In this document: positions 12,233-64,000 of the stretch, one piece after another
How the letters are laid out: the number at the start of each line of letters is the position of its first letter
Numbering within the stretch: the first letter of the stretch is position 1
Assembly (NCBI GenBank): GCA_012513915.1
Contig: JAAZBG010000033.1
Coordinates: 1-64,000, forward strand
Source of the DNA: Fibrobacter sp.
GTDB taxonomy: Bacteria > Fibrobacterota > Chitinivibrionia > Chitinivibrionales > Chitinispirillaceae
Reading direction: 5' to 3'
Length of the DNA stretch: 64,000 nt
Translations under genes and position numbers: made by a program
The notes under the pieces: model-generated
Databases searched by the model: none
What the model saw: only the letters and a program-made list of their open reading frames with translations
What the model was told of the DNA's origin: nothing

Positions 12233-12242
12233 GCGAGATACT

Positions 12243-12265
12243 GGGGACGTGTACTGCACGTCTCC
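12243..12265 (+). terminator. Rho-independent-like hairpin after the P-type ATPase
   Basis: ggggacgtg-tactg-cacgtctcc, 9-bp stem including one G-U pair; weak T-tract. Confidence 0.5.
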
Positions 12266-12808
12266 ATTCTACCGCCGATAGTATGATATCCTCTTTACAA
12301 AAAATACACGGTTAACAATACAACACCCCTGATTAAAAATATCTAATGTAAAATAGTGGTTGTTTCCGGTCGGATCGATCGGATCAGTGTTTGAGCCTGT
12401 CGGATCAAGTGACCCCACCCTGGCTCAAAGCAGCCAGACCTACTCTGAAGATGGTGTTGTAATTATGCAAAATGATAATGTGGTGGTTGTGGCCGTTGTC
12501 GGTGAAAGGTGTAATTTAGTGTGGTGCGAAGTAAAGATAGTGAATTTATCATTTCTGCAGCAGCCTTTTGGTGGAATACTTGGTGATCCTTATATATATG
12601 AAGTGTATTTAGATGATGGTGCTATGAGAAGTTAAAATTCGAATAATAATTGTTTACCAAATTACCTAAATGTTAATGGTAGTTTAAAAAAAACAACATA
12701 TTTTGGCTAAAAAAGAAAATCTCGGTTATATTTTAAACGGGGGGGATCTGGGGAGCATGGATACTTTTGGGTAAAAAGTAATCTCAAAATATTTTTGCGT
12801 ATAAGTGG

Positions 12809-12862
12809 TAATGTACCTCTTCAGAGTGATTTTCTAAAAAACTCAACAACAGAGGTACATTA
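12809..12862 (+). promoter_or_regulatory. 5'UTR hairpin sequestering the Shine-Dalgarno of the CE1-like esterase gene
   Basis: taatgtacctct (12809-12820) is the exact reverse complement of agaggtacatta (12851-12862); the ATG is at 12863. Confidence 0.6.
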
Positions 12863-14137: not shown

Positions 14138-14271
14138 ATTACTGAAATAATTTCTATTTACCGTATTAATTTGTGTGTTGGTAGTGGCTAATTGTAAACT
14201 ATATCGAAAAAGCAGAATCGTCTTAATTGAAGGTTACTTGTAATCAACGATTCAATGCCGGGGAGATACTT

Positions 14272-16032
14272 ATGCAACTTATAATCTGCACCATGATCTT
14301 TTTGTGTCTGATAGTATCATCACTATCAGCTGAAACTGATATATCTCTGAAAGGTATGGTAACAGATGGGGATGGAGCTGCAATCGCAGGAGCATCAATC
14401 GTACTTGTTTCAGATACGATGTTTAAAGGAGTTACTAACGCGAAAGGTGAATTCCGTAATGAGAACAATCCTTCGATTAGTGACCCCGGAATTTTAAGAA
14501 CAAAAGGCTCTGCCGGATACAGAATCGAAGTTACCGGAAGTCATCTCAGGATTGTTATTCCGTCTGATGTTGTCAAGGGTTCGGTAAATATTTTTTCTGC
14601 CAGTGGAAAACAAATTTTTACCATTACATGTGGTGCGATGTGTTACGGTTTACATGAGTATAAGTTACCGGAACTGGCTGTCGGCTATTATATCATACAC
14701 TTTACTGCTGACCGCTTTCAAGTAGTAAAAAAAATGGTAAGTGCCGGAAACCGGATTTACGTGAGTGGTAATTCTTTTTATGTCAATAATTTAAGAAGTA
14801 AATACGATGCTGCTGTGGAGAGTGTTGATACGCTGCTTGTTGATAAAAACGGGTTTAAACCAGAAATGTATCCGGTGACTTCGTATAAGCAAGCAGATAT
14901 TACTGTAATAATGGACCGAACCAAATCCTCCTTGATTAATTCTGTAATGGGCCTGCCTGTTATCAAAGAAATGCCGGATCCGCTTATCATGAAAGATGGA
15001 ACAAAAGTTACTACTATGGCGCAGTGGAAGCTTCGCCGGCGGGAGATGATCCGCATTCTGGAAGATTATGAATATGGACATATGCCACCACCACCCGGAA
15101 ATGTTAAGGGAACAGAAACCACTTCTATGACTCGAATTATCAGCGGGAGTGTAAAGGCTGATTATCGAAAGATACATCTGAGTTTTGGAAAGGATGGAAA
15201 ACTGGGATTTGATCTGGGAATTTTTACTCCGGCTACTTTACCTGCTGAGCATGGTTTCCCTGTTTTGATCTCTGTTGATTTCAGTGCCGGAAAATCAAGT
15301 CTTGGAGCTGCTTCAGCTGCTGTTTCCCGCGGTTATGCAGTGGCAACTATTCAGTATACTCAATTGGGTGCTGACAATAATAATTATAAATCTACCGCCT
15401 TTTTTCCCTCTTATCCGGAATATGACTGGCGTGATTTTTCTGCCTGGGCCTGGGGAATTTCCCGCGCGGTCGATTACCTGATAACCGATACTCTGATTGA
15501 TAAAGAAAAAATCATGGTTACCGGCACTTCACGATGTGGGCAGGCAGCTCTTTTGGCTGGCGCTTTTGATGAACGTATTGCGCTTACTGCTCCGGTTGCC
15601 GGCGGTATGGCATTTCGTTTCTCTGGCAAAGAAATGGGTAGGGGGCTAGGGCAGGGGATCACTGAGATTGTTGATCAGAATACAATCTGGTTTGGTCCGC
15701 TTCTGGAGAAATTCAGGAATCAGACCCCGCGTCTTCCATGTGACCAGCACTGGCTTCCAGCGCTTACTGCACCGCGTCTTTTCATAATGTTAAATTCTTT
15801 CGCTGATGAATACGGAAGAGCCTATGCAGCGGTTCAGACTTTTCTGGGAGCCAGGCCAGTGTATGCTTTCCTGAATGCGACAGATAAGCTTGGAATGAAT
15901 TTCAGGGAAGGAGGTCATGGCATGACTTCTGAAGATTGGAAGGTGCTTCTTGATTTTGCCGACCAGAATTTGTTGAAAAAAGGGGGCGATAGAAACTTTA
16001 ATACGATTCCACCATCCAATAAGCTTCCTTGA
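14272..16032 (+). CDS. CE15-like glucuronoyl esterase family protein with N-terminal carboxypeptidase-regulatory-like and sorting-like domains
   Basis: Supplied ORF starts 14227; ATG at 14272 has GGGGAG upstream; VTGTSRCGQAALLAGAFDERIALTAPVAGG; late HGMTSEDW. Confidence 0.8.
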   Translation: MQLIICTMIFLCLIVSSLSAETDISLKGMVTDGDGAAIAGASIVLVSDTMFKGVTNAKGEFRNENNPSISDPGILRTKGSAGYRIEVTGSHLRIVIPSDVVKGSVNIFSASGKQIFTITCGAMCYGLHEYKLPELAVGYYIIHFTADRFQVVKKMVSAGNRIYVSGNSFYVNNLRSKYDAAVESVDTLLVDKNGFKPEMYPVTSYKQADITVIMDRTKSSLINSVMGLPVIKEMPDPLIMKDGTKVTTMAQWKLRRREMIRILEDYEYGHMPPPPGNVKGTETTSMTRIISGSVKADYRKIHLSFGKDGKLGFDLGIFTPATLPAEHGFPVLISVDFSAGKSSLGAASAAVSRGYAVATIQYTQLGADNNNYKSTAFFPSYPEYDWRDFSAWAWGISRAVDYLITDTLIDKEKIMVTGTSRCGQAALLAGAFDERIALTAPVAGGMAFRFSGKEMGRGLGQGITEIVDQNTIWFGPLLEKFRNQTPRLPCDQHWLPALTAPRLFIMLNSFADEYGRAYAAVQTFLGARPVYAFLNATDKLGMNFREGGHGMTSEDWKVLLDFADQNLLKKGGDRNFNTIPPSNKLP

Positions 16033-16203
16033 GTACTAACATATCCATTAGTATCTGTATGATATCGTTTATCATCAGATTTTCCAGTTGTACAGGACTT
16101 ATGTACGGATTTATGACTACTTACTTTACTATCACATCTTTTAATACTATCAACCAGTAATCGCATAACAAAACAATTTTTTTTATCCAGGAGGAGTGCT
16201 CAA

Positions 16204-18069
16204 ATGTTCAAAATATTTACAGGAATTTTTATTTTGTGCTGTTCAATTGTTCCAGTTCTGGCGGCAGTTGAAATAGTCATAAATGGGACTGTAAAAGATG
16301 ATAAAGGCATGGTCATTTCCGGAGCTGTTGTGACCCTTAGCTCGGACACTTTACTTAAGGATACTACCGATGCGAGTGGTAAATTTGCAATAAGCAATCA
16401 AACTCCCATAAGAAAAAATGGTGAACAGCATTCGTTGACGGGGATCAGAAGTATCAGTATAAAAAATAATCGACTCAGGTTATTTATCTCATCACCGGCG
16501 AGTAATGTGGTTGTGTCTGTATTTTCTGCCAATGGTGAAAAATGCGCTTGTATTAATTTAGAAAATCTGGAACAGGGTTTGAATACTTATGCACTGCCGT
16601 TGTTAACAGATGGCTTTTATCTGATGAGTGTCAGGATAGATCAACATATCTCAACCTGTAAACTGGTACAAACCGGAAATGAAATATACATAACAGGGCA
16701 AATAGAACAAGTGGGATCAGCTCAAATATTTCGGAATGCAGCAGTAGAAAATATTGACACGCTAATAATTAAAAAAGAAGGGTTTGCATTTGTAAAACAA
16801 CCGGTTGGATCATACAAACTAACTGGAATTGAAATTACCATGAAGAAGGAAACTTCGGAGGCACGGTATGCCTATGGAGCCAGTGTTGAAAATTCGTGTT
16901 TTGATTGTGTTGTACCGGAGTTAGTTGATGCTTCCAGGCTGACTGTTAAGAATTCGAAACTTCCAGATCCATTTAAAAAAATTGATGGCACCAAAATAAC
17001 AAAAAAAAGTGAATGGCGCTGTCGCAGACAGGAGATACTTTTACAGGCAATGAAATACATATATGGAGAAAAACCAGTACCGCCTCAGGTGGTAAACGGC
17101 ACCGTCACCAATAACAGAATTACCGTACACGTGGAGGATAATGGTAAGAAGATTGATTTTAGTGCTACTGTCAAATTGCCGTCTTCAGGAAAAGCTCCCT
17201 ATCCGGCAATTATAACAATGGGAACTTTTGGCTCAGAGATCGCTAATAAGGCAAGCAGACAAGGGGTGGCTATTATTACTTACGATTATTCGAAAATTGG
17301 TGCCGAACAGCAACCCGAGGGAAATGTTGACAGAAGTAGAGATTTTACGGGACTTTTTTATGATATCTATGGTGGCAAACATTCGGCAGGTCTTTTAATG
17401 GCCTGGGCGTGGGGGGCCAGCAGGATGATTGACGTACTACAGAAATCCGGTGGTGATATCATTGATTACAGGCGGCTGGCTACAACAGGGTGTTCAAGAA
17501 TGGCTAAAGGTGCATTTGCGGTTGCGCTTTTTGATGAACGGGTAGCTCTTGCGCTGCCGGAAGAAACAAGCGTTGTTGGAATTCCCGCCTACCGAATCGC
17601 TGATGCAAAATGTCCGGAAAATACAGATAACAATTTTAGAGGTCAGTTATGGCTTAGTAATAACTTTAAACCCTTCGTAAAAAATACAAGTCTGCTTCCT
17701 ATTGATGCGCATGAAATAATCGCAACATTTGCACCCAGAGGATTATACAGCATGGAAAATCAGGCGGCAACGCAAATGTGTGCACTGGGTGGGAATATGG
17801 CAATTCAGGGAGCTATGGAAGTTTATAAGGCGTTAGGCTGTTCTCAGAATCTTAGCTATAACTCAAAGACACCTAATGGAACCGGACATTGTTCATATAC
17901 CGATAATTTCACAGATATGTTAAATAAAAATATCAGTAAATTCCTGAATCATCAAACTGCGCAAACAGGGGGCATTGTTGCTGGTGGCAGTACTCTTAAC
18001 AAGTCAGACTGGATCGACTGGAAAGCCCCTGTGTTGGAAAATGATACTGATCTCTACGAAACAGATTAA
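16204..18069 (+). CDS. CE15-like glucuronoyl esterase family protein, second copy
   Basis: 621 aa; TTGCSRMAKGAFAVALFDERVALALPEE; late HCSYTDNF; AGGAGG upstream of ATG. Confidence 0.82.
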   Translation: MFKIFTGIFILCCSIVPVLAAVEIVINGTVKDDKGMVISGAVVTLSSDTLLKDTTDASGKFAISNQTPIRKNGEQHSLTGIRSISIKNNRLRLFISSPASNVVVSVFSANGEKCACINLENLEQGLNTYALPLLTDGFYLMSVRIDQHISTCKLVQTGNEIYITGQIEQVGSAQIFRNAAVENIDTLIIKKEGFAFVKQPVGSYKLTGIEITMKKETSEARYAYGASVENSCFDCVVPELVDASRLTVKNSKLPDPFKKIDGTKITKKSEWRCRRQEILLQAMKYIYGEKPVPPQVVNGTVTNNRITVHVEDNGKKIDFSATVKLPSSGKAPYPAIITMGTFGSEIANKASRQGVAIITYDYSKIGAEQQPEGNVDRSRDFTGLFYDIYGGKHSAGLLMAWAWGASRMIDVLQKSGGDIIDYRRLATTGCSRMAKGAFAVALFDERVALALPEETSVVGIPAYRIADAKCPENTDNNFRGQLWLSNNFKPFVKNTSLLPIDAHEIIATFAPRGLYSMENQAATQMCALGGNMAIQGAMEVYKALGCSQNLSYNSKTPNGTGHCSYTDNFTDMLNKNISKFLNHQTAQTGGIVAGGSTLNKSDWIDWKAPVLENDTDLYETD

Positions 18070-18262
18070 ATTTTCTTAATGCAGATTTGAATACAGAAAT
18101 GCAACAGTACCTCAACAGACTTCGGGTTGAAGTGTAACCATGCGATAAAGTGCAATGGAGAACCGCATAAAGTATATATTAGTATCCGGATATTGCGTCT
18201 GATATGAGACTTGATCAAATCCTATGGCACTGCATCCATAATAAAGAAAGTGGAAAACATTC

Positions 18263-18967
18263 ATGACATTATGTGAAACGACAGGAAAGACTAAGAATAT
18301 AACCCGTCGCCAGGCATCAATAATTGCAGGCTGTTCCTTGCTATTAATGGCCATTCTTGCACCGATAGCCAATTTGGGTGCAGTTGTACATTTGATTGTT
18401 AAAGGGGATCCTGCTGCAACGCTATCGAATATTGTATCATCAATGGGTATGTTCCGTGCGGGAATTTTTCTTTTTCTGATAGTTGCAGTTCTTGACGTAA
18501 TAGTGGCGTGGGCTCTGTATATAGTATTTACAGAATCAAACAAGGGATTGTCTATGTTTGCCGCGTGGTTGAGATTAGTATACACGGCTATACTTGCGAC
18601 GTCAACAAATCATCTTTTTCAGGTTATGTCGCTTCTGGGAAATTCCGGGTGTGAAATGTTTGAGACGAACCAGATGGCTGCGCAGGTCATGTTCCAATTG
18701 AATTCTTTTCAGTCCGGATGGGATCTGGGATTACTCATTTTTGGAGCACATCTGATAGTTCTTGGTTACCTGGTTATAAAATCTATGGATTTCCCAAAAT
18801 TTCTGGGTATTCTTATATCTATCGCGGGTCTTGGCTATATGATTGATAGTATCGGAAAAATTCTTGTATCGGGTTATAGTCTTCAGATTTCAATGTATAC
18901 ATTCATTGGTGAAGTGCTCTTGATATTCTGGTTATTTTGGAGAGGAATTAAAGGATTTAAAAATTGA
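18263..18967 (+). CDS. DUF4386-type integral membrane protein
   Basis: 234 aa; several TM segments; N-terminal RRQASIIAGCSLLLMAILAPIANLG typical of the family. Confidence 0.7.
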   Translation: MTLCETTGKTKNITRRQASIIAGCSLLLMAILAPIANLGAVVHLIVKGDPAATLSNIVSSMGMFRAGIFLFLIVAVLDVIVAWALYIVFTESNKGLSMFAAWLRLVYTAILATSTNHLFQVMSLLGNSGCEMFETNQMAAQVMFQLNSFQSGWDLGLLIFGAHLIVLGYLVIKSMDFPKFLGILISIAGLGYMIDSIGKILVSGYSLQISMYTFIGEVLLIFWLFWRGIKGFKN

Positions 18968-18991
18968 TCCGATGACTAAAAAATAAATATA

Positions 18992-19801
18992 TCAGGTAAG
19001 TAGCATGTAAACAAAAACAGTCAGCAGAGACACTATGAAGCTGCTGGCAAAATTAACTACGTCATTGTTTATCAGAGGGTATCCGGAGAATACCTTATTG
19101 TTAGTGCCATCAGTTACCCGCTTTTCAGTAATCATCTGTTTTGCCTCACAATAGTATTTCACTTGCAGCGTAGCTCCCAGAACACTGTCTAAAAGCGACC
19201 CGGCAAATCCGCCAAACAGGCATAATGTAAATAACAATAAAGCGTGGCTGCTATCATTGTATACATGGTGATACCCTATTGTAAATACAGCAGCAATAAG
19301 AACCGCTCCGGCAAAAGATGCCATTGTACCAGCAAATGTAATTCCTCCGGAGAGTCCTTTACGTAGTGGCTTAAAATTCAAAATAGAAACAGTGGGCTTC
19401 TTGCTGAGAACACCTAATTCAGAACCCCATGTATCAGCATTTGACGATGCAATTCCGGTTGCAAAACCAAGAATGAATATATGATTACCGGTCAGATAAA
19501 AGAGTATGGCAAAAAGTAATGCAGGCATTCCATTGGCAGCTACCTGAGCAATATCTCGTGCCCCGCATTTCTGGTGAATTGATGAAAGTTCTTTTTCAAG
19601 ATGTTTACAGAACTTTCCGGCAATTGTTGACGAAATAAAAAAAGTAATTAGCAGTGACAGAAAATACAAACCACCACATACCGTAAGTACTATCCCCATA
19701 CATAGTGCGCCGAACAGACCGTTTATGGTTAATGATTTTTTATTATAGGCATACAGTGCGATCACCAGGCATATAATCGTGCCAATGAGAATTTGATACA
19801 T
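18992..19801 (-). CDS. DUF92 family membrane protein (VTE6/phytyl-phosphate-kinase-like)
   Basis: 269 aa; ASSNADTWGSELGVLSKKPTVSIL and GGISFAG-like/GSLLDSVLGATLQ motifs typical of DUF92. Confidence 0.8.
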   Translation of the reverse strand: MYQILIGTIICLVIALYAYNKKSLTINGLFGALCMGIVLTVCGGLYFLSLLITFFISSTIAGKFCKHLEKELSSIHQKCGARDIAQVAANGMPALLFAILFYLTGNHIFILGFATGIASSNADTWGSELGVLSKKPTVSILNFKPLRKGLSGGITFAGTMASFAGAVLIAAVFTIGYHHVYNDSSHALLLFTLCLFGGFAGSLLDSVLGATLQVKYYCEAKQMITEKRVTDGTNNKVFSGYPLINNDVVNFASSFIVSLLTVFVYMLLT

Positions 19802-19809
19802 AAGTTCTC

Positions 19810-20502
19810 CTATGCAATCTTAATCAGAATAGAGTAGAACAGAGATGCTCCTAAAGGAACTGTCAGGTTGTCAAATCCATGTGGTGTTAGTCCCTCCAAT
19901 AATGTCGCGAACAATGCAATTGTCAGACTGTAAATAAGCATTTCCGGTACTGGAAAAAAAAGGAATAATGTATATGCTGTAACAAATGAAAGAATGAACA
20001 TCGTCAGGCACCCCTCAAGACTCTTCTCACTTCCAGATATTTTAAACTTTAGTCTGCCAAACCGTTTTCCAATTACCGCTGCAAAGCCATCACCGTATCC
20101 CATAACAAGAATCCCGAGTGCTCCGATTGACGGATGACTTGAGGGTGAAAATGTAATCAATGCTAATATCAACAGAGAAATTGCATAGTACACAGTACCT
20201 AAATCCTCTTTTCCCCCTTTTCGTTCCATCGCTCCAAACCATTTTTTCTTATAGGAGAGGTAGTTTATGATGACAAAGGTAAATGGACCAACTGATGCTG
20301 CAATATTTGATGTAAAAAGAACCATTGCCAGAATCCACCAGTTGGACAGGAGTATATGGATAAATTTCCTGCTCCCTTCACTGGATAATAATTTTTTCTT
20401 TTGCAGTAAAGTCGCAATTCCGATAATAGCAAATACATATACATAGGAGATAAGAATTCCGATGTATTCAAATGATGAAACTGGCGTAATCAATTTGTCC
20501 AT
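19810..20502 (-). CDS. Phytol/dolichol kinase-like, CDP-diglyceride-synthase-fold membrane protein (VTE5-like)
   Basis: 230 aa; RKFIHILLSNWW; GYGDGFAAVIGKRFG; KSLEGCLTMF; EGLTPHGFDNLTVP. Confidence 0.78.
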   Translation of the reverse strand: MDKLITPVSSFEYIGILISYVYVFAIIGIATLLQKKKLLSSEGSRKFIHILLSNWWILAMVLFTSNIAASVGPFTFVIINYLSYKKKWFGAMERKGGKEDLGTVYYAISLLILALITFSPSSHPSIGALGILVMGYGDGFAAVIGKRFGRLKFKISGSEKSLEGCLTMFILSFVTAYTLFLFFPVPEMLIYSLTIALFATLLEGLTPHGFDNLTVPLGASLFYSILIKIA

Positions 20503-52163: not shown

Positions 52164-52232
52164 TGATCCCGTCGGGATCAAATCTTTATGGAATACATGA
52201 AGACAAAAAAAATTCCGAGTCCCATTAGGGAC
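52164..52232. repeat. Two short palindromic intergenic repeats
   Basis: tgatcccgtcgggatca (52164-52180) and gtcccattagggac (52219-52232), in an otherwise non-coding region upstream of the DUF499 gene. Confidence 0.6.
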
Positions 52233-52640: not shown

Positions 52641-55600
52641 ATGAAAACTGTCAGGGATGCGTGTGTTGTTCAAAAAAATGCTTTTGAAATCAATGTTGGA
52701 GACCAGATTGAGCAACTGGATCAGATCATCTCAACTACCGATGGTACCGACTATTTTGCAAAAACCTTTATCACTGACGGTATGCGGGCATTACTTCACA
52801 AAGGTATCGCACGCCTCGCCGGAAAAACCAACGATTCAATTTTTCATCTCAAACAGGCAATGGGTGGTGGTAAAACACACGTAATGGTTGGTTTTGGCCT
52901 GCTTGCAAAAGACCCCGCACTCAGAAACAAACTAATCAACGATATACCTTATCAAGCAGCTTTTAAAAATGTGAGGATCGCGGCGTTCAATGGCCGGAAT
53001 AATCCACCAACTTTTTTATGGGGTGAAATAGCAAAACAACTCGGTAAACAGCAGTTATTTACAGAATTCTGGGATGCAGGAGCAAAAGCACCCGATGAAG
53101 CCGCCTGGCTCCGGCTCTTTGATGGTGATGAACCGGTACTAATTCTGCTTGATGAAATGCCACCCTATTTTCACTACCTCAGTACTCAGGTTTCCGGTAT
53201 GGGCACTGTTGCCGATGTGCTCACAAGGGCATTTGCAAATATGCTTACTGCTGCTCAAAAACGAAAGAATGTCTGTATAGTCGTCTCCGACCTTGAAGCC
53301 GCCTATGCCACCGGTGGCAAGCTGATTCAAAAAGCACTCGATGATGCAAAACAGGAGATCGGTCGCGCGGAAATCAGCATCACACCGGTCAATCTGGAAT
53401 CAAGTGAAATCTATGAAATTTTGCGTAAACGACTATTTGTTTCTTTACCAAATAAGAGTGTGATTCAGGATGTTGCACAGGCGTTTGCAAAGAAACTCAG
53501 TGAAGCAGCAAAAGCAAAAGCGGTTGAGCGAAGTGCCGAATCGCTTGCAGACGAAATCATGGAAACCTATCCATTTCACCCGCGCTTTAAAAACCTTGTT
53601 GCGCTTTTTAAGGAAAACGAAAAATTCAAACAGATGCGCGGACTCATGGAACTTGTTTCCCGTCTGCTGAAATCGGTCTGGGAACGAAATGAAAATGATG
53701 TATTTCTTATCGGAGCACAGCATTTTAATCTGAATCTGCCCGAAGTTCGGGAAAAACTCTCCGACATTTCCGAAATGCGTGATGTCATCGCGATGGACCT
53801 ATGGAATCAACAGCAATCTGCACACGCACAGTTAATTGATATCAACACTGGTCGGTCAAATGCCTCTGAAGCGGGAACTTTACTGCTTACTGCCAGCTTG
53901 TCAACAGCGGTCAATGCCGTAAAAGGGTTGACCGATGCAGAACTGCTCGAATGCCTGATATCGCCCCTTAATGAACCCAGTGATTACAGACTTGCATTTA
54001 CCGGGCTGCATAAAGTTGCATGGTATCTTCACCAGACACTTGAAGGAAGATACTACTTTGACAGACAGGAAAACCTTACCAAGAAACTTCAGGGATACGC
54101 CGAAAAGGCTCCGCAGAACAAGGTTGACGAACTGATACGGACACGGCTCAACGAAATGTATACCCCCAAAACACGGGAAGCCTACGAAAAAGTACTGCCA
54201 TTGCCAATTATGGATGAGGCTGAAGCGCAGCTCAAACTATGCAGAACACTGCTGATTGTCAGCCCCGATGGCAAAATCCCTCCTGAAGTCGTTAACCAGT
54301 TTTTCAGTTCATTGACTGTTAAAAATAATCTGCTGGTGCTCACTGGTGAAAAAACACAGTTTGCAAGCGTTGAAAAAGCTGCACGGCATTTGTATGCAGC
54401 AATGAAAGCCGACAATGAAATTACCGCCTTACATCCACAGCGTAAAGAATTTGATGAGAAAAAAGCACAATACGAACAGGATTTTCAAACCACCATTCTT
54501 TCCGTTTTTGACAAGTTGTTTTTCCCCGGTGCACAAAGTTCAGTTCCGATGCTTCGGTCAAAAGCACTTGATACTACCTATCCGTCAAATGAGGTTTACA
54601 ACGGGGAACGGCAGATTGTTAAAACGCTTACCTCCGACCCGATTAAGTTGTATACCGATGTTACGGCAAATTTTGATGCACTAAAATCACGGGTAGAGGC
54701 ACTTCTTTTTGGAAATCAGAATGATATGCGTAAAAACGATCTCTCTGATAAATTAAAACAACAATCGCAAATGCCATGGATGCCGCCAAAGGGACTTGAT
54801 CTGCTAATTCAGGAATGCTGTCAACGCGGATTATGGGAAGATCTTGGTAATGGTTATATCACAAAAAAGCCAAAACCCAAAGCTACAGGCGTTCAGATAA
54901 ATGCACTGAGCGACCCGGACGACGCTGGTGCGGTTCGACTGAAAGTAGAGGCCTTAAACGCAGGCCCGGCTCCACGTATCTACTTTGCAGAAGATACATC
55001 CGTGAGTGAAAACTCACAAATCCTGAAGGAAAATGAGCTTGTTACCAATGCACTGCGTGTACAGTTTCTTGTTGTTGACCCCACAGGAAAAAACAACACC
55101 GGATCTCCGGTCTGCTGGGAAAACGCACTTGTATTGCGCAACCGGTATGATGAAACTGCCCGGAGCGTTGAGCTCTTTGTTGCGCCTCGCGGTACGATCC
55201 GGTATACGCTTGACGGATCGGAGCCAAGAAACGGCACCGAATATACCGGGCCGGTATCGTTATATTCTCAGGATGAGATCAGGATGTTATGCTTTGCGGA
55301 ATGCGAAGGTCTTGAGACACGGCGGGAGTTTATTTTTAAGGCTGAGGGTGAAAAGGGAATAAGTCTTGTACGTACTGAGCCTGCGACTATCTATACTGTC
55401 AAGCCGAAACGTCTTGACTCAGCGGCAAAGACCTATGAAGGCTTAACCATTGCACGCGAAAAAGGTGTTGAATTTGAGCAGGTGGTGCTTACGATTGGCA
55501 ACGGTTCGAAAGTAATCACCCTTACCCTGGGAGATATCCGGCTCGGTGCAGAGGTGCTTGAGAAACTGCTTAATGATCTTAAAGCATTTGTGCCGGTCGA

Positions 55601-55715
55601 TTCTCCGGTGTTGATGCAATTCAAACGTGCCCATTTTGCATCGGGATTTGACCTCGAACAGTTTACTCAAAAACTTGGCATTGAACTTGAACAAAATGAG
55701 GTCCGGCAGCAATGA
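52641..55715 (+). CDS. DUF499 domain AAA+ ATPase (putative defence ATPase)
   Basis: 1024 aa; LKQAMGGGKTHVMVGFGLLAKDP (Walker A); EPVLILLDEMPPYF (Walker B); chitobiase-C-like TIRYTLDGSEPRNGTEYTGPV near C-terminus. Confidence 0.88.
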   Translation: MKTVRDACVVQKNAFEINVGDQIEQLDQIISTTDGTDYFAKTFITDGMRALLHKGIARLAGKTNDSIFHLKQAMGGGKTHVMVGFGLLAKDPALRNKLINDIPYQAAFKNVRIAAFNGRNNPPTFLWGEIAKQLGKQQLFTEFWDAGAKAPDEAAWLRLFDGDEPVLILLDEMPPYFHYLSTQVSGMGTVADVLTRAFANMLTAAQKRKNVCIVVSDLEAAYATGGKLIQKALDDAKQEIGRAEISITPVNLESSEIYEILRKRLFVSLPNKSVIQDVAQAFAKKLSEAAKAKAVERSAESLADEIMETYPFHPRFKNLVALFKENEKFKQMRGLMELVSRLLKSVWERNENDVFLIGAQHFNLNLPEVREKLSDISEMRDVIAMDLWNQQQSAHAQLIDINTGRSNASEAGTLLLTASLSTAVNAVKGLTDAELLECLISPLNEPSDYRLAFTGLHKVAWYLHQTLEGRYYFDRQENLTKKLQGYAEKAPQNKVDELIRTRLNEMYTPKTREAYEKVLPLPIMDEAEAQLKLCRTLLIVSPDGKIPPEVVNQFFSSLTVKNNLLVLTGEKTQFASVEKAARHLYAAMKADNEITALHPQRKEFDEKKAQYEQDFQTTILSVFDKLFFPGAQSSVPMLRSKALDTTYPSNEVYNGERQIVKTLTSDPIKLYTDVTANFDALKSRVEALLFGNQNDMRKNDLSDKLKQQSQMPWMPPKGLDLLIQECCQRGLWEDLGNGYITKKPKPKATGVQINALSDPDDAGAVRLKVEALNAGPAPRIYFAEDTSVSENSQILKENELVTNALRVQFLVVDPTGKNNTGSPVCWENALVLRNRYDETARSVELFVAPRGTIRYTLDGSEPRNGTEYTGPVSLYSQDEIRMLCFAECEGLETRREFIFKAEGEKGISLVRTEPATIYTVKPKRLDSAAKTYEGLTIAREKGVEFEQVVLTIGNGSKVITLTLGDIRLGAEVLEKLLNDLKAFVPVDSPVLMQFKRAHFASGFDLEQFTQKLGIELEQNEVRQQ

Positions 55716-56290
55716 GTGCAACAGACGGTTTTGGTGCACCAATCGCGTTCGGTGCACATCATTTTATCGTTGATATCCCGGTTGCTCCGCGGGAACCGGT
55801 GGAAATTATTGAAGATTTCGGCTTTAACGGACATGAAACAAAAAAAGAGATTACCGAGTGCAGAGTTATTCTTGCCCGCGAATTATGGAGCGCAATCCGG
55901 GATCAGGCCCGATCAGATTTTAACGAGCGGCTAAAAAAGAAGAAAATGCAGACAGGTGCCTGGAGTACCGGCAAAAATAAACTGGATCGTTTTCTTGGCA
56001 AAGAGCTTTGTGTTCTTGCCTGGGCTGCTGAACATGCAACGCTTGATGAGTGCGCTATTATTTGTCAAAAATGGTCTGCACTACGCCCCGAGGAACGCTG
56101 GTGGCTCTTTGCAAAAACAGCTGCCGAAGCAGGGGGTGATAAAGATACCAGTCGCGGCTGGCGCAAAGCGCTGTATTGTGCTCTCTCTGACGGCACCAGT
56201 ATTAAAGTTGACAAAAAAATAGTGCCGAAAAGCAGAAAAAATAAAACAGATGAACCACTACCCAATTTATTCGATTTTATTGAAGGATAA
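55712..56290 (+). CDS. DUF3780 domain-containing protein
   Basis: 192 aa; GFGAPIAFGAHHFIVDIP N-terminus; ATGA overlap with DUF499 gene. Confidence 0.75.
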   Translation: MSATDGFGAPIAFGAHHFIVDIPVAPREPVEIIEDFGFNGHETKKEITECRVILARELWSAIRDQARSDFNERLKKKKMQTGAWSTGKNKLDRFLGKELCVLAWAAEHATLDECAIICQKWSALRPEERWWLFAKTAAEAGGDKDTSRGWRKALYCALSDGTSIKVDKKIVPKSRKNKTDEPLPNLFDFIEG

Positions 56291-56295
56291 CCGGT

Positions 56296-56619
56296 ATGCT
56301 TAAAAAGATTGTACTTGAACGGTTCAGAGGATTTAAACGTCTTGAGCTTGACGTCCCGGAAGTACTTGTTTTAATGGGACCTAAAAGCTCCGGTAAAACA
56401 ACGGTGCTTCACACTGAGATCTGGCAGCGGGGTAAAGACCGTGCATCGTTTATCCTTGGTGAGATCAGGAAATTGCTTGGTGCCGATGCAAACACTTTGA
56501 CAACCTCATTGTCAAAAGTTATCGAACGCGCAGACGTAAACCTGTTCCCCGCTGGGAACCCCGCGGTTATACCACCGGAAATTGCAGCTCTTCTTGACTG
56601 GATGACATCAAATGCTTGA
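56296..56619 (+). CDS. Short P-loop ORF: N-terminus of an SMC/AAA_15-like ATPase without the remaining motifs (possible remnant)
   Basis: 107 aa; MLKKIVLERFRGFKRLELDVPEVLVLMGPKSSGKTTVLH then unrelated-looking tail; overlaps next gene by 8 nt. Confidence 0.55.
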   Translation: MLKKIVLERFRGFKRLELDVPEVLVLMGPKSSGKTTVLHTEIWQRGKDRASFILGEIRKLLGADANTLTTSLSKVIERADVNLFPAGNPAVIPPEIAALLDWMTSNA

Positions 56620-59452
56620 ACCAAACTCATGGAACAATAAACCAGCACTTATAGAGCACCTTTTTCCCGTTCAGAAACTGTCGGTCGAAAGTTTTAAAGA
56701 GCAGATGGCTGGTTCCGGTAAAACGCTGGTGAGTCTTGGTGGTTACTGGAAAGGCCGAAAACCACTTATTCTCAATAAAGCATGTATTCTTGGTTCGTTG
56801 CTTCCGTTTACAGGTGCTTTAAAACGGGATCTTGAAATATTTGAGATGCTAATGGGTATGGATAATGAGTCGATTGAAATTCGTCTTATTGAAAAAAATG
56901 CCAAACAGGTTGATTTTTTTAAGGTACATGAGCGTTCCGCACAATACCAGGTCAAGTATAAAGATTTTGTTCGTGATGCATTAAGGCCGGAGGAGTGCGA
57001 TCGTTCGCTCTTCGACCATATCTGGAATGAGGTTAATGAGCATCTTGGTACGTGTGCGACAACATTTCCCGAATTAGTTGAACAAATGGGAATTGCCCGT
57101 TTTGGACATAAGCCAAGAGTTGCAGATGTATTCAGCGGTTCGGGCCAGATTCCATTCGAGGCAGCTCGTTTAGGGTGTAAAGTTTATGCGTCAGATTTAA
57201 ATCCTATTTCGTGTATGCTGACCTGGGGTGCATTTAATGTTGTTGGTGCAAATTCTCAAAAAAGCAACAAAAATAAAGTAGAACAAAACGCATTAGCCCA
57301 AAATATAAGTACAACTATAGACACAATGGGAATTGAAACAGATGGAAACGGGTGGAATGCAAAAGCGTTTTTATATTGCAATGAAGTCAATTGCCCTGAA
57401 ACAGGTTGGATGGTGCCTTTACTGCCATCAAGGGTTGTTAGTTGTAAGAGTTACAAGGTAATTGCCAATTTAATTCCTATACATGCAGAGAAACGATACG
57501 AAATTGATATTGCGTATGTTACTACCGATGAAGAAATAGAAGCTGCAAGAGAGGGCACTGTTCAGGATGGTTATGTTGTTCATTCACCAGATGGAATAAA
57601 TTTAATCCGCACGAAAATATCCACACTTAGGGGTGATTTTACTGAAGGTAAAGTGAGTGGAAATAAATTAAGACTTTGGGAAAAATCTGATTTTATTCCC
57701 CGTAAAGAAGATGTCTTTCAGGAGAGACTTTATTGTGTTTTGTGGAAAAGAAAAAAGAAATCAGGCAAGGGTGAAGAATACGAGTTCAGAAAAGTAACAG
57801 CTGCCGATTTACAACGTGAACAAAAAGTAATCGATTTTATAACTGAACACTTTTCTGAATGGCAGGAAAAAGGATGTATTCCTGACATGAAAATTGAACC
57901 TGGAAATGAAACAGAGCGACTTTACCGTGAGCGTGGATGGACCTATTGGCACCATTTGTTTAATCCACGGCAATTACTATCAGCGGGTCTTGTTCGTCAA
58001 CAAATCAATGGGTTATTAGCTATTCCACTGGCAAGACTTATTAATCAAAACTCACGGTTGTCACGCTGGGATTCTGCAAGTGGTGGTGGTGGTTGTGTAC
58101 AGGCTGTATTTGACAATCAGGCATTAAACACGCTCTATACGTATGGCTGCAGAGCGAGTTCAAATTTTGAAGATTTGTTAACTAAATCATCAAAACATTT
58201 CCCAATAGATGAAGCAATGTATACCGTGAATACACATCCGGCGCAAGAACTTGCAACAGAAAACGACATATACATTACCGATCCACCATACGGTGATGCT
58301 GTAAAATATGAAGAAATAACCGAGTTTTTTATTGCATGGCTTCGTAAAAATCCACCTGTTGAATTCGCACACTGGACATGGGACAGCCGTCGCTCGCTTG
58401 CTGTCAAGGGTGAAGATGATGGATTCAGACAAGGAATGGTTGCGGCGTACCGGAAAATGGGCCAGATGATGCCCGATAATGGGATTCAGGTACTCATGTT
58501 TACCCACCAGAGTGGCTCCATCTGGGCTGATATGGCAAATATTGTCTGGGCTGCCGGTTTACAGGTAACTGCAGCATGGTATGTTGTTACCGAAACCGAT
58601 TCCGCACTTCGTCAGGGTGCCAATGTTACCGGAACGGTATTACTCGTACTCCGTAAACGTATCGAACGCAAAGAATCGTTCCGTGATGAACTTGGCTGGG
58701 AGATTGAAGACGCCGTACGTAAACAGGTCGAAAGCCTCACCGGGCTTGACAAAACGGTCCGTGAAGAAAACTCCGAAGGTCTCTATAACGACGCCGATAT
58801 CCAGATGGCCGGCTATGCTGCAGCACTGCGGGTTCTTACCACCTATTCCGTTATTGACGGAAAGGATATGGAAACAGAAGCGACGGCACCGCGTAAAAAA
58901 GGACAAAAGAATTTTGTTGATGAACTCATCGATTTTGCGGTACAGACTGCGGTGCAATTCCTTGTTCCTATCGGTTTTGAAAAAGAGCAGTGGCAGCGCC
59001 TTGCACCAATCGAACGGTATTACCTCAAGATGGTAGACATGGAGGCACAAGGGGAAAAGTCGCTTGACAACTACCAGAATTTTGCAAAAGCATTCCGTGT
59101 ACATCATTTCGACGCCCTTATGGCAAGTGCAAAAGCAAACGCCGCACGTATGCGTACCGCAGAGGAATTTAAAGGTGAACTGATGAGCGGTTCCGCAGAA
59201 ATTGCATCAACAACCCTGCGGGCATTATTGTATGCTATGTATGAAGTACAGCGAGACACCGAAATTGACGATGTCCTGCTGCACCTGATGACCAATTGCG
59301 GCCCGAATTACCTTCAGGTAAAACCACTCCTGATTATCATGGCAGATTTTCTTGCAACAAAACGGGAAGATCTCAAACCGATGCACCTTTACGAAAAAGA
59401 AGCATCCTCAGCACGGGTGCTTGCCGAGGCAATAAGAAATCAGAGATTGTAA
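56612..59452 (+). CDS. DUF1156 domain adenine-type DNA methyltransferase
   Basis: 946 aa; VADVFSGSGQIPFEAARLGCKVYASDLNPIS (SAM motif I); YITDPPYGDAVKYEE (DPPY catalytic motif). Confidence 0.88.
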   Translation: MLEPNSWNNKPALIEHLFPVQKLSVESFKEQMAGSGKTLVSLGGYWKGRKPLILNKACILGSLLPFTGALKRDLEIFEMLMGMDNESIEIRLIEKNAKQVDFFKVHERSAQYQVKYKDFVRDALRPEECDRSLFDHIWNEVNEHLGTCATTFPELVEQMGIARFGHKPRVADVFSGSGQIPFEAARLGCKVYASDLNPISCMLTWGAFNVVGANSQKSNKNKVEQNALAQNISTTIDTMGIETDGNGWNAKAFLYCNEVNCPETGWMVPLLPSRVVSCKSYKVIANLIPIHAEKRYEIDIAYVTTDEEIEAAREGTVQDGYVVHSPDGINLIRTKISTLRGDFTEGKVSGNKLRLWEKSDFIPRKEDVFQERLYCVLWKRKKKSGKGEEYEFRKVTAADLQREQKVIDFITEHFSEWQEKGCIPDMKIEPGNETERLYRERGWTYWHHLFNPRQLLSAGLVRQQINGLLAIPLARLINQNSRLSRWDSASGGGGCVQAVFDNQALNTLYTYGCRASSNFEDLLTKSSKHFPIDEAMYTVNTHPAQELATENDIYITDPPYGDAVKYEEITEFFIAWLRKNPPVEFAHWTWDSRRSLAVKGEDDGFRQGMVAAYRKMGQMMPDNGIQVLMFTHQSGSIWADMANIVWAAGLQVTAAWYVVTETDSALRQGANVTGTVLLVLRKRIERKESFRDELGWEIEDAVRKQVESLTGLDKTVREENSEGLYNDADIQMAGYAAALRVLTTYSVIDGKDMETEATAPRKKGQKNFVDELIDFAVQTAVQFLVPIGFEKEQWQRLAPIERYYLKMVDMEAQGEKSLDNYQNFAKAFRVHHFDALMASAKANAARMRTAEEFKGELMSGSAEIASTTLRALLYAMYEVQRDTEIDDVLLHLMTNCGPNYLQVKPLLIIMADFLATKREDLKPMHLYEKEASSARVLAEAIRNQRL

Positions 59453-59480
59453 TTTGATAGAATACTAATAGAAAGGTTGT

Positions 59481-60734
59481 ATGATGGCTCAACGATCATC
59501 ACCAAATAAAAAGCCTGCAGTACCCAGAATAGAATCGATAAGTGTGAAAAATTATCGTGCTCTGAAAAGTATCACCTTAGAGAAGCTCACACCTATGACG
59601 GTGTTACTCGGTCCCAACGGAAGTGGTAAATCGACAATTTTTGATGTATTTAATTTTTTATCGGAGTGCTTTCAATTTGGACTGCGGCACGCATGGGACA
59701 GACGCGGAAGAGGTAAGGAATTAAAGAGTCGTGGTGCTGATGGGCCGATTGTATTTGAATTAAAATATCGTGAACAACCAAAAATGCCGGTGATCACGTA
59801 TCATCTGGCAATTGACGAAGGAAAAAAAGGGCCTGAGGTTGTTGAGGAGTGGTTGCAATGGCGACGTGGCGAACAATATGGTCAACCATTTCGTTTTATA
59901 GATTTCAGGAAAGGCATTGGAAAAGCAGTTAGTGGAGAAATGCCTGACAAAGAAGATAAACGGATTGAGACAAATCTTCGTTCTGCTGATTTGATTGCGG
60001 TAAATACACTTGGGCAATTTTCAGAACACCCACGTGTTGCAGCGTTAAGGGAGTTTATAACCGATTGGTATGTCTCCTATTTATCAATCGATCAGACACG
60101 CAGCCAGCCGGAAGCTGGTCCGCAGGAGCGTTTAAGTAAGAGTGGGGATAATTTACCCAATGTAATCCAATATCTTAAGGAACAGTTTCCCGAACGTCTG
60201 GAAAAAATATTTAAAATTCTCCAGCAGCGAATACCCCGACTGGAGCGGGTTGATGCAGAACCAATGCCTGACGGCCGTCTTCTTTTGCAAATTAAAGATG
60301 CGCCTTTTGATAAACCCGTTCTATCTAAATTCGCTTCAGATGGAACGATGAAGATGTTATCATATTTAACTCTTTTGCACGACCCGGAGCCTCCTCGTTT
60401 TATCGGAATTGAGGAACCGGAGAACTTTCTTCACCCAAGATTGTTACCAGAACTTGCTGAAGAGTGCAGAGCGGCTTCTGAGAAAAGTCAACTGCTTATT
60501 ACGAGTCATTCACCTTTTTTACTTAATGCAATGAAAGCAGAAGAGGTAAGGATTCTCTACAGGGATCATACTGGATTTACAAAAGTAGTCACGGCATCAG
60601 ATATTAAAGGTATTCAGGAAATGCTTGAACAGGGAGCATCTTTGGGTTATTTGTGGATGGAAGGTCATTTTGGACTCGGAGATCCGTTAGTCAATGCAGG
60701 TGCGCCAAAAGAGCTTAAAAAAAGGTCCAGATGA
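59481..60734 (+). CDS. AAA_21-type ABC/SMC-like ATPase
   Basis: 417 aa; [75 protein letters not shown]. Confidence 0.92.
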
Positions 60735-61360
60735 TGGTTGAAAAATTAGTTGTATTTGTCGAAGAATATTCAATGGAAGCCGCACTTGAGATACTTTTGC
60801 CCAAACTGCTTAATGGTGTCACTTTTCAGATTATCCGGTTTCAGTGTAAAAACGACATGCTTAAGCAGCTACCATTACGTCTTAAGGGGTATAGCAGTTG
60901 GCTGCCTGCAAACTGGTCTATTCTGGTACTGGTAGACCGGGATGATGATGATTGCAAAGAACTGAAACGTGAACTTGAAAAACACTGTGCCACAGCCGGG
61001 TTACTCACCAGAACTGCAGCAAAAACCGGGCAGAAATTTAAAGTAACAAATCGAATTGTGATAGAGGAACTTGAATCGTGGTATTTTGGAGATTGGCAAG
61101 CGGTAAAAACAGCCTACCCCAAAGTCAATGCTAACATTGCAGGCAAAGCAGCATACCGTGATCCGGATTTAATAAAAGGCGGTACCTGGGAAGCACTTGA
61201 GCGTGTTTTAAAAAACTCCGGATATTTTTCTACAGGACTTCGCAAAATAGAATGTGCACGAACGGTAACTCCACACATGAACGTTAATGTGAACCGCTCT
61301 AAAAGCTTTAACGTTTTTCATCAGGCAATTACAAAGATTCTGAATGGGAGCATTGGTTAA
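60731..61360 (+). CDS. DUF4276-type Toprim-like protein
   Basis: 209 aa; [15 protein letters not shown] (Toprim-like Glu) and [12 protein letters not shown] (DxD); ATGA overlap with AAA gene. Confidence 0.72.
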
Positions 61361-61372
61361 GGAATACTATTT

Positions 61373-64000
61373 ATGACACTCCGCAGATTCTCATCACGTA
61401 CAGAAAACCTTGACAAGGAATTCTTATCAGTAATTCTTAAAGGCGCAACAGTATACCATCGCATAGCCGGATATTTTCGAAGTTCAATATTTGAACTTGT
61501 CGGTGAGGAGATCGCTGCTATCCCTGAAGTCAAAATACTCTGCAACAGTGAACTTGACCTTATAGACTTTCAGGTCGCAAGCGGTCGGGATAGTGCACTC
61601 AAGGAAAAATGGAATCAGGTTGATGTCGCCTCGGAATCAATTCTCTACAAAGATCACTACAGAAAACTTAAAGACCTGCTGACAAAAGGCAATGTGGAAA
61701 TAAGAGTTGTCCCAAGGGAACGGTTATTTCTTCATGGTAAAGCTGGTGTTATACATTACCCTGATGGACGCCGGGTATCATTTATCGGTTCTGTCAATGA
61801 GACAAAGAATGCTTTCGCATCAAACTATGAACTTGTATGGCAGGACGACGACACTGCAAGTGCAGACTGGGTGGAAGCAGAATTTGCAGCACTCTGGAAC
61901 GATGCCATACCACTTCCCGATATTATTATCTCCGAAATCAACCGTGTCGCAGAACGTCAGGAAATAAAGGTTGATACACTCGAAGCAGATGCAATTCCTG
62001 CTGCAGCAATGGTGGAAGCGCCTCTTTACAGAGGTGGAGAACAGCTCCAACCTTGGCAACGGTCTTTTGTTGCGCTCTTTATTGAACACCGGGCAAAATA
62101 TGGAAAATGTCGCCTGCTGATTGCCGATGAAGTTGGATTAGGAAAAACGCTTTCAATGGCGACAAGTGCTCTTGTTTCTGCACTTCTTGACGATGGTAGA
62201 GTGCTTATTCTTGCTCCGTCAACGCTACTGTTTCAATGGCAGGTCGAACTAAAAGACCGGCTTGGTGTACCAAGCGCAGTCTGGTCTTCTCAAAAGAAAG
62301 TCTGGATAGGGTCCGAAGGACAGCAATTATCGGTCAAGGGGCTATCTGAAACCATTAAAAATTGTCCTTGTCAAATTGCGATTGTCTCCACAGGGCTTAT
62401 TTTTCATCAATTCGATGGACATCAGTTTGGCCGCGAAGCAGCAAACTTACTCGCGCTTAATTATGGAACGGTGATACTTGACGAAGCGCATAAAGCACGT
62501 GTAAAGGGCGGCATTGGACTATCAGCCGATGAGCCAAACAACCTGCTCTATTTTATGAAATGTATAGCAAAAAAAACACGACATTTACTTTTAGGTACAG
62601 CGACCCCTATTCAAACGCGGGTTAGTGAACTTTGGGATCTGCTTGAAATTCTTAACACCGGCGCAGAATTTGTACTTGGTGATGCTCTTTCATCATGGCG
62701 CGATAGTAATGCTGTTATTCCGTATATTACCGGCAAGGAGGATGTTCACTCAACGGAAGTAATCTGGCAGATGCTTTCAAATCCGTTGCCGCCGGGAAGT
62801 GAAGACACTATTATCGGGCAGGTTCGCGATACACTATCGTTATCGGATAAAGAATTTTATTGTTCTGTCAAACATGAAGAACTCGATTTTACCATAAAAG
62901 AAATGGTGCTGCCGCAAGCGATAGGAAGTAATTTCTTTGTAAAAAACAATCCGGTTTTACGCCATGTTGTCGTACGTAAACGGAAGCAACTGGAAGATGA
63001 CGGATTACTTGAAAAAGTGGGTGTGGCGACACATCCGCTTATGGAAAAGCAACACCTTTACAATTCACGATTTTCAGGTATCGGTTTATTAACGAACACA
63101 CCTTTTGAAGTGGCATACAGAGCAACAGAACAATTCTGTAAACTGCTTCAGCAACGTACTAAAGCTGCAGGTTTTATGAAAACACTACTATTACAGCGGC
63201 TTTGCTCAAGTTTTGCATCCGGACTTGCTACAGCACATGCAATGTTAAACAGGGTTGCATTTGATGATGATGAAAATGCTGAAGATGAAGAACACATACT
63301 TGCAGAGATGACATCTGCGGAAATTAATTGTCTCAATGATATTGTTCGTGAATTGTCTCGACCCGAAGCACGAGACCCAAAACTTGAAACAGTCAGATGG
63401 TTTCTCACTGAGTTTACAAGTGACAATAGACACTGGCTTGAGCACGGGTGCATTATTTTCAGTCAATATTTTGATACATCATTCTGGGTCGCACGCGAAC
63501 TTGCAAAACTATTACCTGAAGAGACAATTGCTGTTTATGCCGGTGCAGGAAAAAGTGGTCTCTTTCGTAACAACCAGTTTAATGCGGTAGAACGCGATTC
63601 CATTAAGCGTGCTGTCAAGACACGGGAGATACGGCTTGTTGTCGCTACCGATGCCGCTTGTGAGGGCTTGAATCTTCAAACACTGGGCACTCTTATTAAT
63701 GTCGATTTACCCTGGAATCCATCACGTTTGGAGCAGCGCCTTGGACGAATAAAACGTTTTGGTCAGGCACGCCGGACAGTTGATATGCTTAACCTTGTCT
63801 ACAACGATACACAGGATGAGAAAGTATACAGCGCATTGTCGCAACGCTTAAAAGATACGTATGACATTTTCGGTTCTTTACCGGATACAATTCAGGACGA
63901 CTGGATTGACGATGAAGTAAAGTTAATTGACGCAATGGATGAGTATATTCATTTACGAAAAGTTGCAGAAAATGCATTCACCGTTCGTTATCGCTCATCA
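61373..64000 (+). CDS. SNF2/DEAH-type helicase with N-terminal phospholipase D-like domain, truncated by window end
   Basis: ATG at 61373, reading frame open to 64000 (876 codons), absent from ORF track because no stop; LHGKAGVIHYPDGRRVSFIGSVNETKNAF (PLD HxK...GSxN); LLIADEVGLGKTLSMA; VILDEAHKAR; LLGTATPIQ; LEQRLGRIKRFGQ. Confidence 0.92.
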   Translation, partial: MTLRRFSSRTENLDKEFLSVILKGATVYHRIAGYFRSSIFELVGEEIAAIPEVKILCNSELDLIDFQVASGRDSALKEKWNQVDVASESILYKDHYRKLKDLLTKGNVEIRVVPRERLFLHGKAGVIHYPDGRRVSFIGSVNETKNAFASNYELVWQDDDTASADWVEAEFAALWNDAIPLPDIIISEINRVAERQEIKVDTLEADAIPAAAMVEAPLYRGGEQLQPWQRSFVALFIEHRAKYGKCRLLIADEVGLGKTLSMATSALVSALLDDGRVLILAPSTLLFQWQVELKDRLGVPSAVWSSQKKVWIGSEGQQLSVKGLSETIKNCPCQIAIVSTGLIFHQFDGHQFGREAANLLALNYGTVILDEAHKARVKGGIGLSADEPNNLLYFMKCIAKKTRHLLLGTATPIQTRVSELWDLLEILNTGAEFVLGDALSSWRDSNAVIPYITGKEDVHSTEVIWQMLSNPLPPGSEDTIIGQVRDTLSLSDKEFYCSVKHEELDFTIKEMVLPQAIGSNFFVKNNPVLRHVVVRKRKQLEDDGLLEKVGVATHPLMEKQHLYNSRFSGIGLLTNTPFEVAYRATEQFCKLLQQRTKAAGFMKTLLLQRLCSSFASGLATAHAMLNRVAFDDDENAEDEEHILAEMTSAEINCLNDIVRELSRPEARDPKLETVRWFLTEFTSDNRHWLEHGCIIFSQYFDTSFWVARELAKLLPEETIAVYAGAGKSGLFRNNQFNAVERDSIKRAVKTREIRLVVATDAACEGLNLQTLGTLINVDLPWNPSRLEQRLGRIKRFGQARRTVDMLNLVYNDTQDEKVYSALSQRLKDTYDIFGSLPDTIQDDWIDDEVKLIDAMDEYIHLRKVAENAFTVRYRSS

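Follow-up and report, generated by a model that had tools for sequence, protein, structure and literature searches.

A Type-2 BREX-related operon with two cargo slots in a Fibrobacter sp. genome, and solo DUF3780 genes in phages

The operon and its core genes

The window, by which we mean the whole 64,000-nucleotide stretch of Fibrobacter sp. DNA that was analysed, ends inside an operon of seven same-strand genes. The source assembly is a 5.5-Mb MAG of 341 contigs that is 99.97% complete with an estimated contamination of 8%, and the operon is internal to its contig of 97,975 nt (~98 kb). The genes are the following.

52641..55715, + strand: DUF499 AAA+ ATPase, BrxC-like, 1024 aa
55712..56290, + strand: DUF3780 protein, small subunit specific to the system, 192 aa
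56296..56619, + strand: P-loop stub, 107 aa
56612..59452, + strand: DUF1156 N6-adenine-type DNA methyltransferase, 946 aa
59481..60734, + strand: HEC-01A, OLD-type ABC ATPase, slot B cargo, 417 aa
60731..61360, + strand: HEC-01B, DUF4276 protein, 209 aa
61373..64000 and onward to contig position 64087, + strand: PLD(HKD)-Snf2 helicase, presumed restriction effector, 904 aa

All seven ORFs were found where the original prediction had placed them, and the overlaps and short gaps that it claimed are there as well, with junctions of -4, +5, -8, +28, -4 and +12 nt in order. Its domain names agree with the profile matches. Six of the seven ORFs are intact, the 107-aa stub being the exception. The operon had also been expected to continue past the window, and it does so only with the 87 nt that complete the PLD-helicase gene. 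In the rest of the contig the stop of this gene lies at 64087, and the next gene, about 245 nt further on, is by our own reading of its sequence a metallo-beta-lactamase-fold hydrolase. Given this stop and the gene that follows, the operon is complete with seven genes and has no eighth.

Four of the genes, coding for the DUF499, DUF3780, DUF1156 and PLD-helicase proteins, give full-length matches to one consecutive PADLOC set, that for the Type-2 BREX-related (BR) system (PDLC02189-02193), and to the NCBIfam 'anti-phage-associated' equivalogs (NF042961-NF042964) above their cut-offs. Full-length matches of 314-1674 bits to the four families exclude chance. The DUF499 protein scores 1674 bits against PDLC02192 and 1418 bits against NF042962 (cut-off 1200), and its Pfam matches are DUF499, CHB_HEX_C_1 and Fn3_assoc. 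Its Walker A (MGGGKTH, residues 74-80) and Walker B (LLDE, at 171-172) residues are at least 95% conserved in 24 relatives, and a single chitobiase-C/Fn3-associated domain was scored, at residues 839-886 (Fn3_assoc and CHB_HEX_C_1). The DUF3780 protein matches PDLC02191 with 314 bits, NF042961 above its cut-off and PF12635 with 251 bits. Its AlphaFold2 model (pLDDT 83.8) predicts an alpha+beta fold for which a comparison with PDB folds gave no relative, the best match having an E-value of 0.61. The methylase scores 1557 bits against PDLC02189 and 1267 bits against NF042963, above cut-off, with PF06634 at residues 18-68, and the residues of its motifs DVFSGSG (172-178) and DPPY (557-560) are invariant in 23 relatives. 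The PLD-helicase scores 1484 bits against PDLC02193 and 1159 bits against NF042964 (cut-off 1100) and holds PLDc_2, SNF2-rel_dom and Helicase_C within one protein. The helicase motifs are intact, and together with HxK (121-123) and GSxNE (139-143) they are conserved in 22 relatives; the HKD motif is without the Asp of the canonical HxKx4D pattern. Thus the catalytic motifs are intact in all four core proteins. Sequence searches of the PDB found no relatives of the DUF499 protein or the methylase.

The core set corresponds to what Gao et al. 2020 reportedly described as a 'restriction-like' system. As defined by Rakesh & Krishnan (NAR 2026, PMC12839542), the Type-2 BR system consists of a DUF499 ATPase, a standalone DUF3780 protein, a DUF1156 N6-MTase and an HKD-Snf2 helicase in which the HKD nuclease replaces a TUDOR domain, and 53% of its members have Fn3-like domain(s) before the DUF499 C-terminus. 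Every one of the traits that we tested was found in the window operon: a DUF499 protein of the Type-2 clade, a standalone DUF3780, an N-terminal DUF1156 on the N6-MTase, an N-terminal HKD nuclease on the Swi2/Snf2 helicase and an Fn3-like domain near the DUF499 C-terminus. Judged by these profiles and domains, the four genes are a complete copy of the described Type-2 BR system. The core genes and their domain makeup are shared, and the window operon differs in what it adds, which is HEC-01 in the gap between methylase and helicase and the P-loop stub in the gap between DUF3780 and methylase.

A relation to Hma had been suggested for the locus and it is borne out, although at a distance. Hma, which is Type-1 BR in the terms of the same paper, has the trio of ATPase, methylase and helicase in common with the operon, all three being distantly homologous (PMC8565338, PMC12839542), and the Hma profiles match accordingly (HmaC 6e-54 for the DUF499 protein, HmaB 3e-20 for the methylase, HmaA 1e-34 for the helicase). 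However, PMC12839542 describes Hma as having no DUF3780 and a helicase with an N-terminal TUDOR and a C-terminal REase domain in place of an N-terminal HKD. The window operon has DUF3780 and PLDc_2, and the Hma profiles are much weaker, with 180 bits for the DUF499 protein against the Hma model compared with 1674 against the Type-2 model. That the operon is BREX, DISARM or Hma proper is hardly credible. Such a reading could draw on the distant matches to HmaA/B/C, DrmD, DrmA and PglXI, but gene content excludes it: there is no profile match to PglZ, BrxL, BrxA or BrxB among the seven genes and none to DrmB or DrmC, the DrmD and DrmA matches are partial and cover the helicase core only, and both DUF3780 and the N-terminal HKD are present.

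A 45-nt inverted repeat, 87% identical between its arms, flanks the operon (window 52165-52209 on the + strand and contig 64263-64307 on the - strand). One arm ends 431 nt before the operon starts and the other begins 175 nt after it ends. The core of the repeat is the palindrome GATCCC-NNN-GGGATC, which occurs 16 times in the 5.5-Mb assembly compared with 0 times for a reversed control. The repeat could be either a dispersed REP-like element or a cassette boundary. The gene upstream of the operon was sought in the relatives as a way to find an empty site, and it is present in none of them.

An invariant core with two cargo slots

Type-2 BR loci were gathered from plasmids, the same phylum, Gammaproteobacteria, Alphaproteobacteria, an archaeal phylum and Cyanobacteria. 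The order of the core genes is the same in all 22 complete loci, which include plasmids, Gammaproteobacteria, Cyanobacteria and Methanosarcina-group archaea. What varies is the content of two junctions. Counting a slot as filled when the junction gap is at least 300 nt, slot A (between DUF3780 and the methylase) is filled in 9/22 loci and slot B (between the methylase and the PLD-helicase) in 9/22. The DUF499-DUF3780 junction carries cargo in 0/22, a score that follows from its single long gap being a split DUF499 gene. The difference between the two slots together (18/44) and this first junction has a Fisher P of 0.0002. In the window operon both slots are filled, A by the 107-aa stub and B by the HEC-01 pair.

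The cargo is of many kinds, among them VapC-type toxin-antitoxin genes, Schlafen/AlbA-like ATP-binding and HEPN-nucleotidyltransferase-like proteins, DUF262, Uma2, a PHP-ATPase and a ParA-like pair; names that go beyond the annotation of the records are our own reading of the sequences. Relatives whose core proteins are 58-68% identical differ in what they carry, with nothing in L006 and L133, VapC-type toxin-antitoxin genes in L116 and Uma2 with DUF262 in L130. The extra genes are cargo that varies between close relatives and not parts that define a subtype. Such systems are built from four core genes of fixed order, with a slot for replaceable cargo on either side of the methylase gene.

DUF3780 was found in 2/169, 7/387, 1/395, 2/298 and 5/297 genomes of five groups, and the distribution of Type-2 BR is horizontal and sparse. 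Of the annotated relatives, the one closest to the core (63-68% identical) is on the conjugative Acinetobacter plasmid pB20AB01c (L006:39-8783, 10936-20155), where it adjoins a Tn7-like TnsABCDE set. This neighbour suggests transposon-borne spread of Type-2 BR systems. An apparent DUF3780-methylase fusion in L133 was rejected, as we read the long ORF as extended upstream in a different frame.

The stub matches AAA_15 at residues 1-39 only and below the cut-off; it has a Walker A motif, and the remainder could not be placed. Its relatives within the phylum are the P-loop N-termini of OLD/RecF-like ATPases of 374-528 aa, and no homologue of stub length was seen on plasmids or viral contigs. Considered as a genuine small subunit, the stub was ruled out for want of a homologue of its length. 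It is probably what remains of an ATPase cargo gene that formerly occupied slot A and was deleted.

The HEC-01 pair and its role in the operon

The pair in slot B matches HEC-01 of PADLOC, with which it shares an AAA/OLD-type ATPase and an adjacent DUF4276 gene overlapping by 4 nt. The ATPase, HEC-01A, scores 543 bits against PDLC04182 and is AAA_21 in Pfam. It has a Walker motif [10 protein letters not shown], a Walker B region EEPEN, a signature-like SDGT motif and H343, and these residues are at least 98% conserved in 85 relatives. HEC-01B scores 286 bits against PDLC04202, matches PF14103 and has the invariant residues E11, D69, D71, E113 and E115. The two best PDB matches of its AlphaFold2 model (pLDDT 88.9, pTM 0.86) are the C-terminal regions of the OLD nucleases 6njx (E 3.6e-4, prob 1.00, TM 0.42) and 6nk8 (prob 0.96, TM 0.48-0.50), which we take to be Toprim. 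The model thus gives moderately strong support to a Toprim-like nuclease fold for the DUF4276 protein, in line with the nested AAA-DUF4276 pair of Toprim-like character that had been predicted. Matches to TAL-effector repeats, obtained with the DUF4276 profile against PDB sequences, were spurious and were disregarded in favour of the fold comparison.

HEC-01 is known as an Hma-embedded candidate from guilt-by-embedding work (cited in PMC12988326 and PMC12255303), whereas the window copy lies inside a Type-2 BR operon. Among the 80 nearest GTDB loci, 19 have the pair in or beside a modification system (BREX 9, type I RM 9, type IIG 1). Eight of the BREX copies are directly before pglZ and one is between pglZ and brxL, the type I copies lie in or next to the system and usually between hsdS and hsdR, and the type IIG copy follows an MmeI-type enzyme. 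An embedded HEC-01 most often sits just before the restriction gene. In a Type-1 BR/Hma operon on an Aeromonas plasmid (L018) it separates the DUF1156 methylase gene from DUF499, and on a Persicobacter plasmid it follows an HsdS gene. About three quarters of the relatives were classed as standing alone, which means that the pair need not depend on a host system. On a tree of 85 ATPases the label embedded or alone changes 17 times, compared with a mean of 20.4 for shuffled labels, and at least 8 changes are forced by starred branches; the window HEC-01A falls, together with all nine BREX-embedded copies, in a clade of 23 rows (SH-aLRT 99). By this tree and these neighbourhoods HEC-01 is a hopping module that has moved among systems of the BREX, type I, type IIG and BR kinds, and not a fixed part of one of them.

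Embedding as such is not new. DarTG2 is among the modules already noted between hsdS and hsdR (PMC12255303), and PMC12839542 describes OLD-ABC/TOPRIM modules within BREX/BR loci, so the general principle is known. The latter paper also gives PARIS (AriA-AriB) as often embedded in BREX/BR loci. PARIS has in common with the HEC-01 pair an OLD-type ABC ATPase with a Toprim-type partner, and the AriA profile matches HEC-01A at 1.5e-29. However, the partner in PARIS is AriB (a DUF4435 Toprim) and in the window it is DUF4276, with no AriB match among the profile matches listed.

Two side observations concern the neighbours of HEC-01. A Meiothermus plasmid (L012:11028-14636) has a type I RM system with tandem passengers before hsdR, DUF4433 with macro (DarTG-like) and HEC-01. 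Pairs resembling HEC-01 occupy moron-like positions, away from any annotated restriction system, at L014:7718-9660, a Rahnella prophage region, and at L019:7692-9651, a conjugative plasmid where the pair is beside transfer genes.

We consider it about 85% probable that the operon is a four-gene Type-2 BR restriction-modification-like defence with a HEC-01 passenger and the scar of an earlier passenger. A different reading would make it a new subtype of seven genes, with the stub and the AAA-DUF4276 pair as indispensable parts of the restriction machine. In its favour are the tight overlaps within one apparent transcription unit and the position of the pair, which directly precedes the effector gene just as it does in BREX, type I RM and Hma-type loci. 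Yet no other Type-2 BR locus that we examined has the pair or the stub, the relatives of HEC-01 either stand alone or belong to one of four kinds of restriction system, with the label changes given above, and neither a full-length nor a sister homologue of the stub was seen, which leaves this reading very improbable. The suggestion of a new subtype is not borne out: the four core genes had already been described in the same order, and because they match the Type-2 BR models and the added pair is the known module HEC-01, the locus needs no new name. The observation behind the suggestion was sound and its functional guess, a modification-dependent operon of anti-phage type with a putative defence phenotype, largely right.

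For the four-gene defence with its passenger we infer the following scheme, from defence phenotype and self-methylation to the trigger and every biochemical step. The DUF1156 methylase would mark host DNA at a specific adenine motif, and the DUF499 AAA+ ATPase with DUF3780 would load on DNA and check for the methyl mark. Unmarked phage DNA would then license translocation and cleavage by the HKD-nuclease/Snf2-helicase. The HEC-01 pair could act as a PARIS-like backup in which the OLD-type ABC ATPase senses some phage action, perhaps an anti-restriction protein, and once triggered would release the Toprim nuclease.

Whether the two modules work together is a separate matter. They may be two independent defences that share a promoter, HEC-01 having landed in a permissive slot and acting alone, and we give this somewhat less than an even chance. 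Most HEC-01 relatives stand alone, as in the Rahnella prophage region and the conjugative plasmid, and both slots take unrelated cargo (VapBC, DarTG-like, Schlafen/AlbA-like, DUF262). Against it, the lack of cargo at the DUF499-DUF3780 junction and the preference of HEC-01 for the site before the effector may reflect regulation and not pure chance. The Type-2 BR core is in none of the 80 HEC-01 loci, within a view limited by flanks and contig ends, and the pairing is rare among the loci sampled. As the combination is not repeated in either set of loci, co-operation of the modules has no support from co-occurrence.

Solo DUF3780 genes in phages

Our most surprising result lies outside the window and is to be taken as a lead. 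Scans of viral contigs with single proteins (DUF4276, DUF3780 and the stub) gave no match, and alignment queries gave matches. With the DUF3780 alignment 30 loci were found, whole systems among them. In eight viral contigs DUF3780 is internal to the contig with no other core gene, and the methylase gene is in none of the eight full records, which may be genome fragments. A ninth solo copy is in a cultured phage.

L150:9995-10450, solo DUF3780
L166:3329-4063, solo DUF3780
L167:8717-9250, solo DUF3780
L168:5185-5688, solo DUF3780
L169:9938-10609, solo DUF3780
L170:931-1407, solo DUF3780
L171:8555-9031, solo DUF3780
L173:9743-10216, solo DUF3780
L179:14956-15471, solo DUF3780, gp4 of Proteus phage vB_PvuS_Pm34

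Structural genes back the phage context for L150, L173 and L179 only. The L150 protein, 58% identical to that of the window over 151 columns, is encoded just upstream of the terminase, portal, head protease and major head protein genes, and in L173 the gene is downstream of the tape-measure gene. In the cultured phage vB_PvuS_Pm34 (Hendrixvirinae) gp4 comes after the lysis genes and is 71% identical to its counterpart in L153, which is a complete system. On the DUF3780 tree the solo copies fall in several places among the system copies, with 6 changes, at least 5 of them forced by well supported branches, and 0% of the bootstrap trees have a single origin of the solo copies. Going by this tree, phages appear to have captured DUF3780 alone from Type-2 BR systems in at least five independent events. 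The PEERWW motif, the GWR segment and other conserved residues are kept in nearly all solo copies. Control scans of the same viral collection, which found 26 loci for the PLD-helicase and 24 for DUF499, gave no comparable solo copies of these large subunits: where neighbours were lacking, the locus was cut off by the contig end, apart from one broken helicase (L202) and one weak match. The solo fraction is 8/29 for DUF3780 compared with 1/49 for the controls (Fisher P = 0.001), to be used as a guide only, since some contigs belong to more than one set and short genes are more readily carried.

The repeated capture and the conserved residues suggest that phages use DUF3780 against the Type-2 BR system, the solo protein being a putative anti-defence protein that works as a decoy or dominant-negative subunit. 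A 'reader' role for DUF3780 is a proposal of PMC12839542, and we found no mention of phage-borne copies in the passages of that paper that we searched. Tentatively, and with the balance leaning slightly against it, DUF3780 might decide between restriction and tolerance, and the solo genes, captured at least five times, might let phages disarm Type-2 BR with a counterfeit or dominant-negative subunit. A rival explanation is that the solo phage copies give lysogenic help to a resident system. If the disarming role is true, it would be the first function for DUF3780, and Pm34 gp4 would be an anti-defence protein and the first candidate inhibitor of Type-2 BR. With the solo copies, a single small gene of a sequenced phage is enough to put the role of DUF3780 to the test.

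As a further observation on viral contigs, slot A of three loci (L152, L154 and L155) holds a macro-domain gene matching Meiothermus together with an upstream ORF, and these genes look like DarTG.
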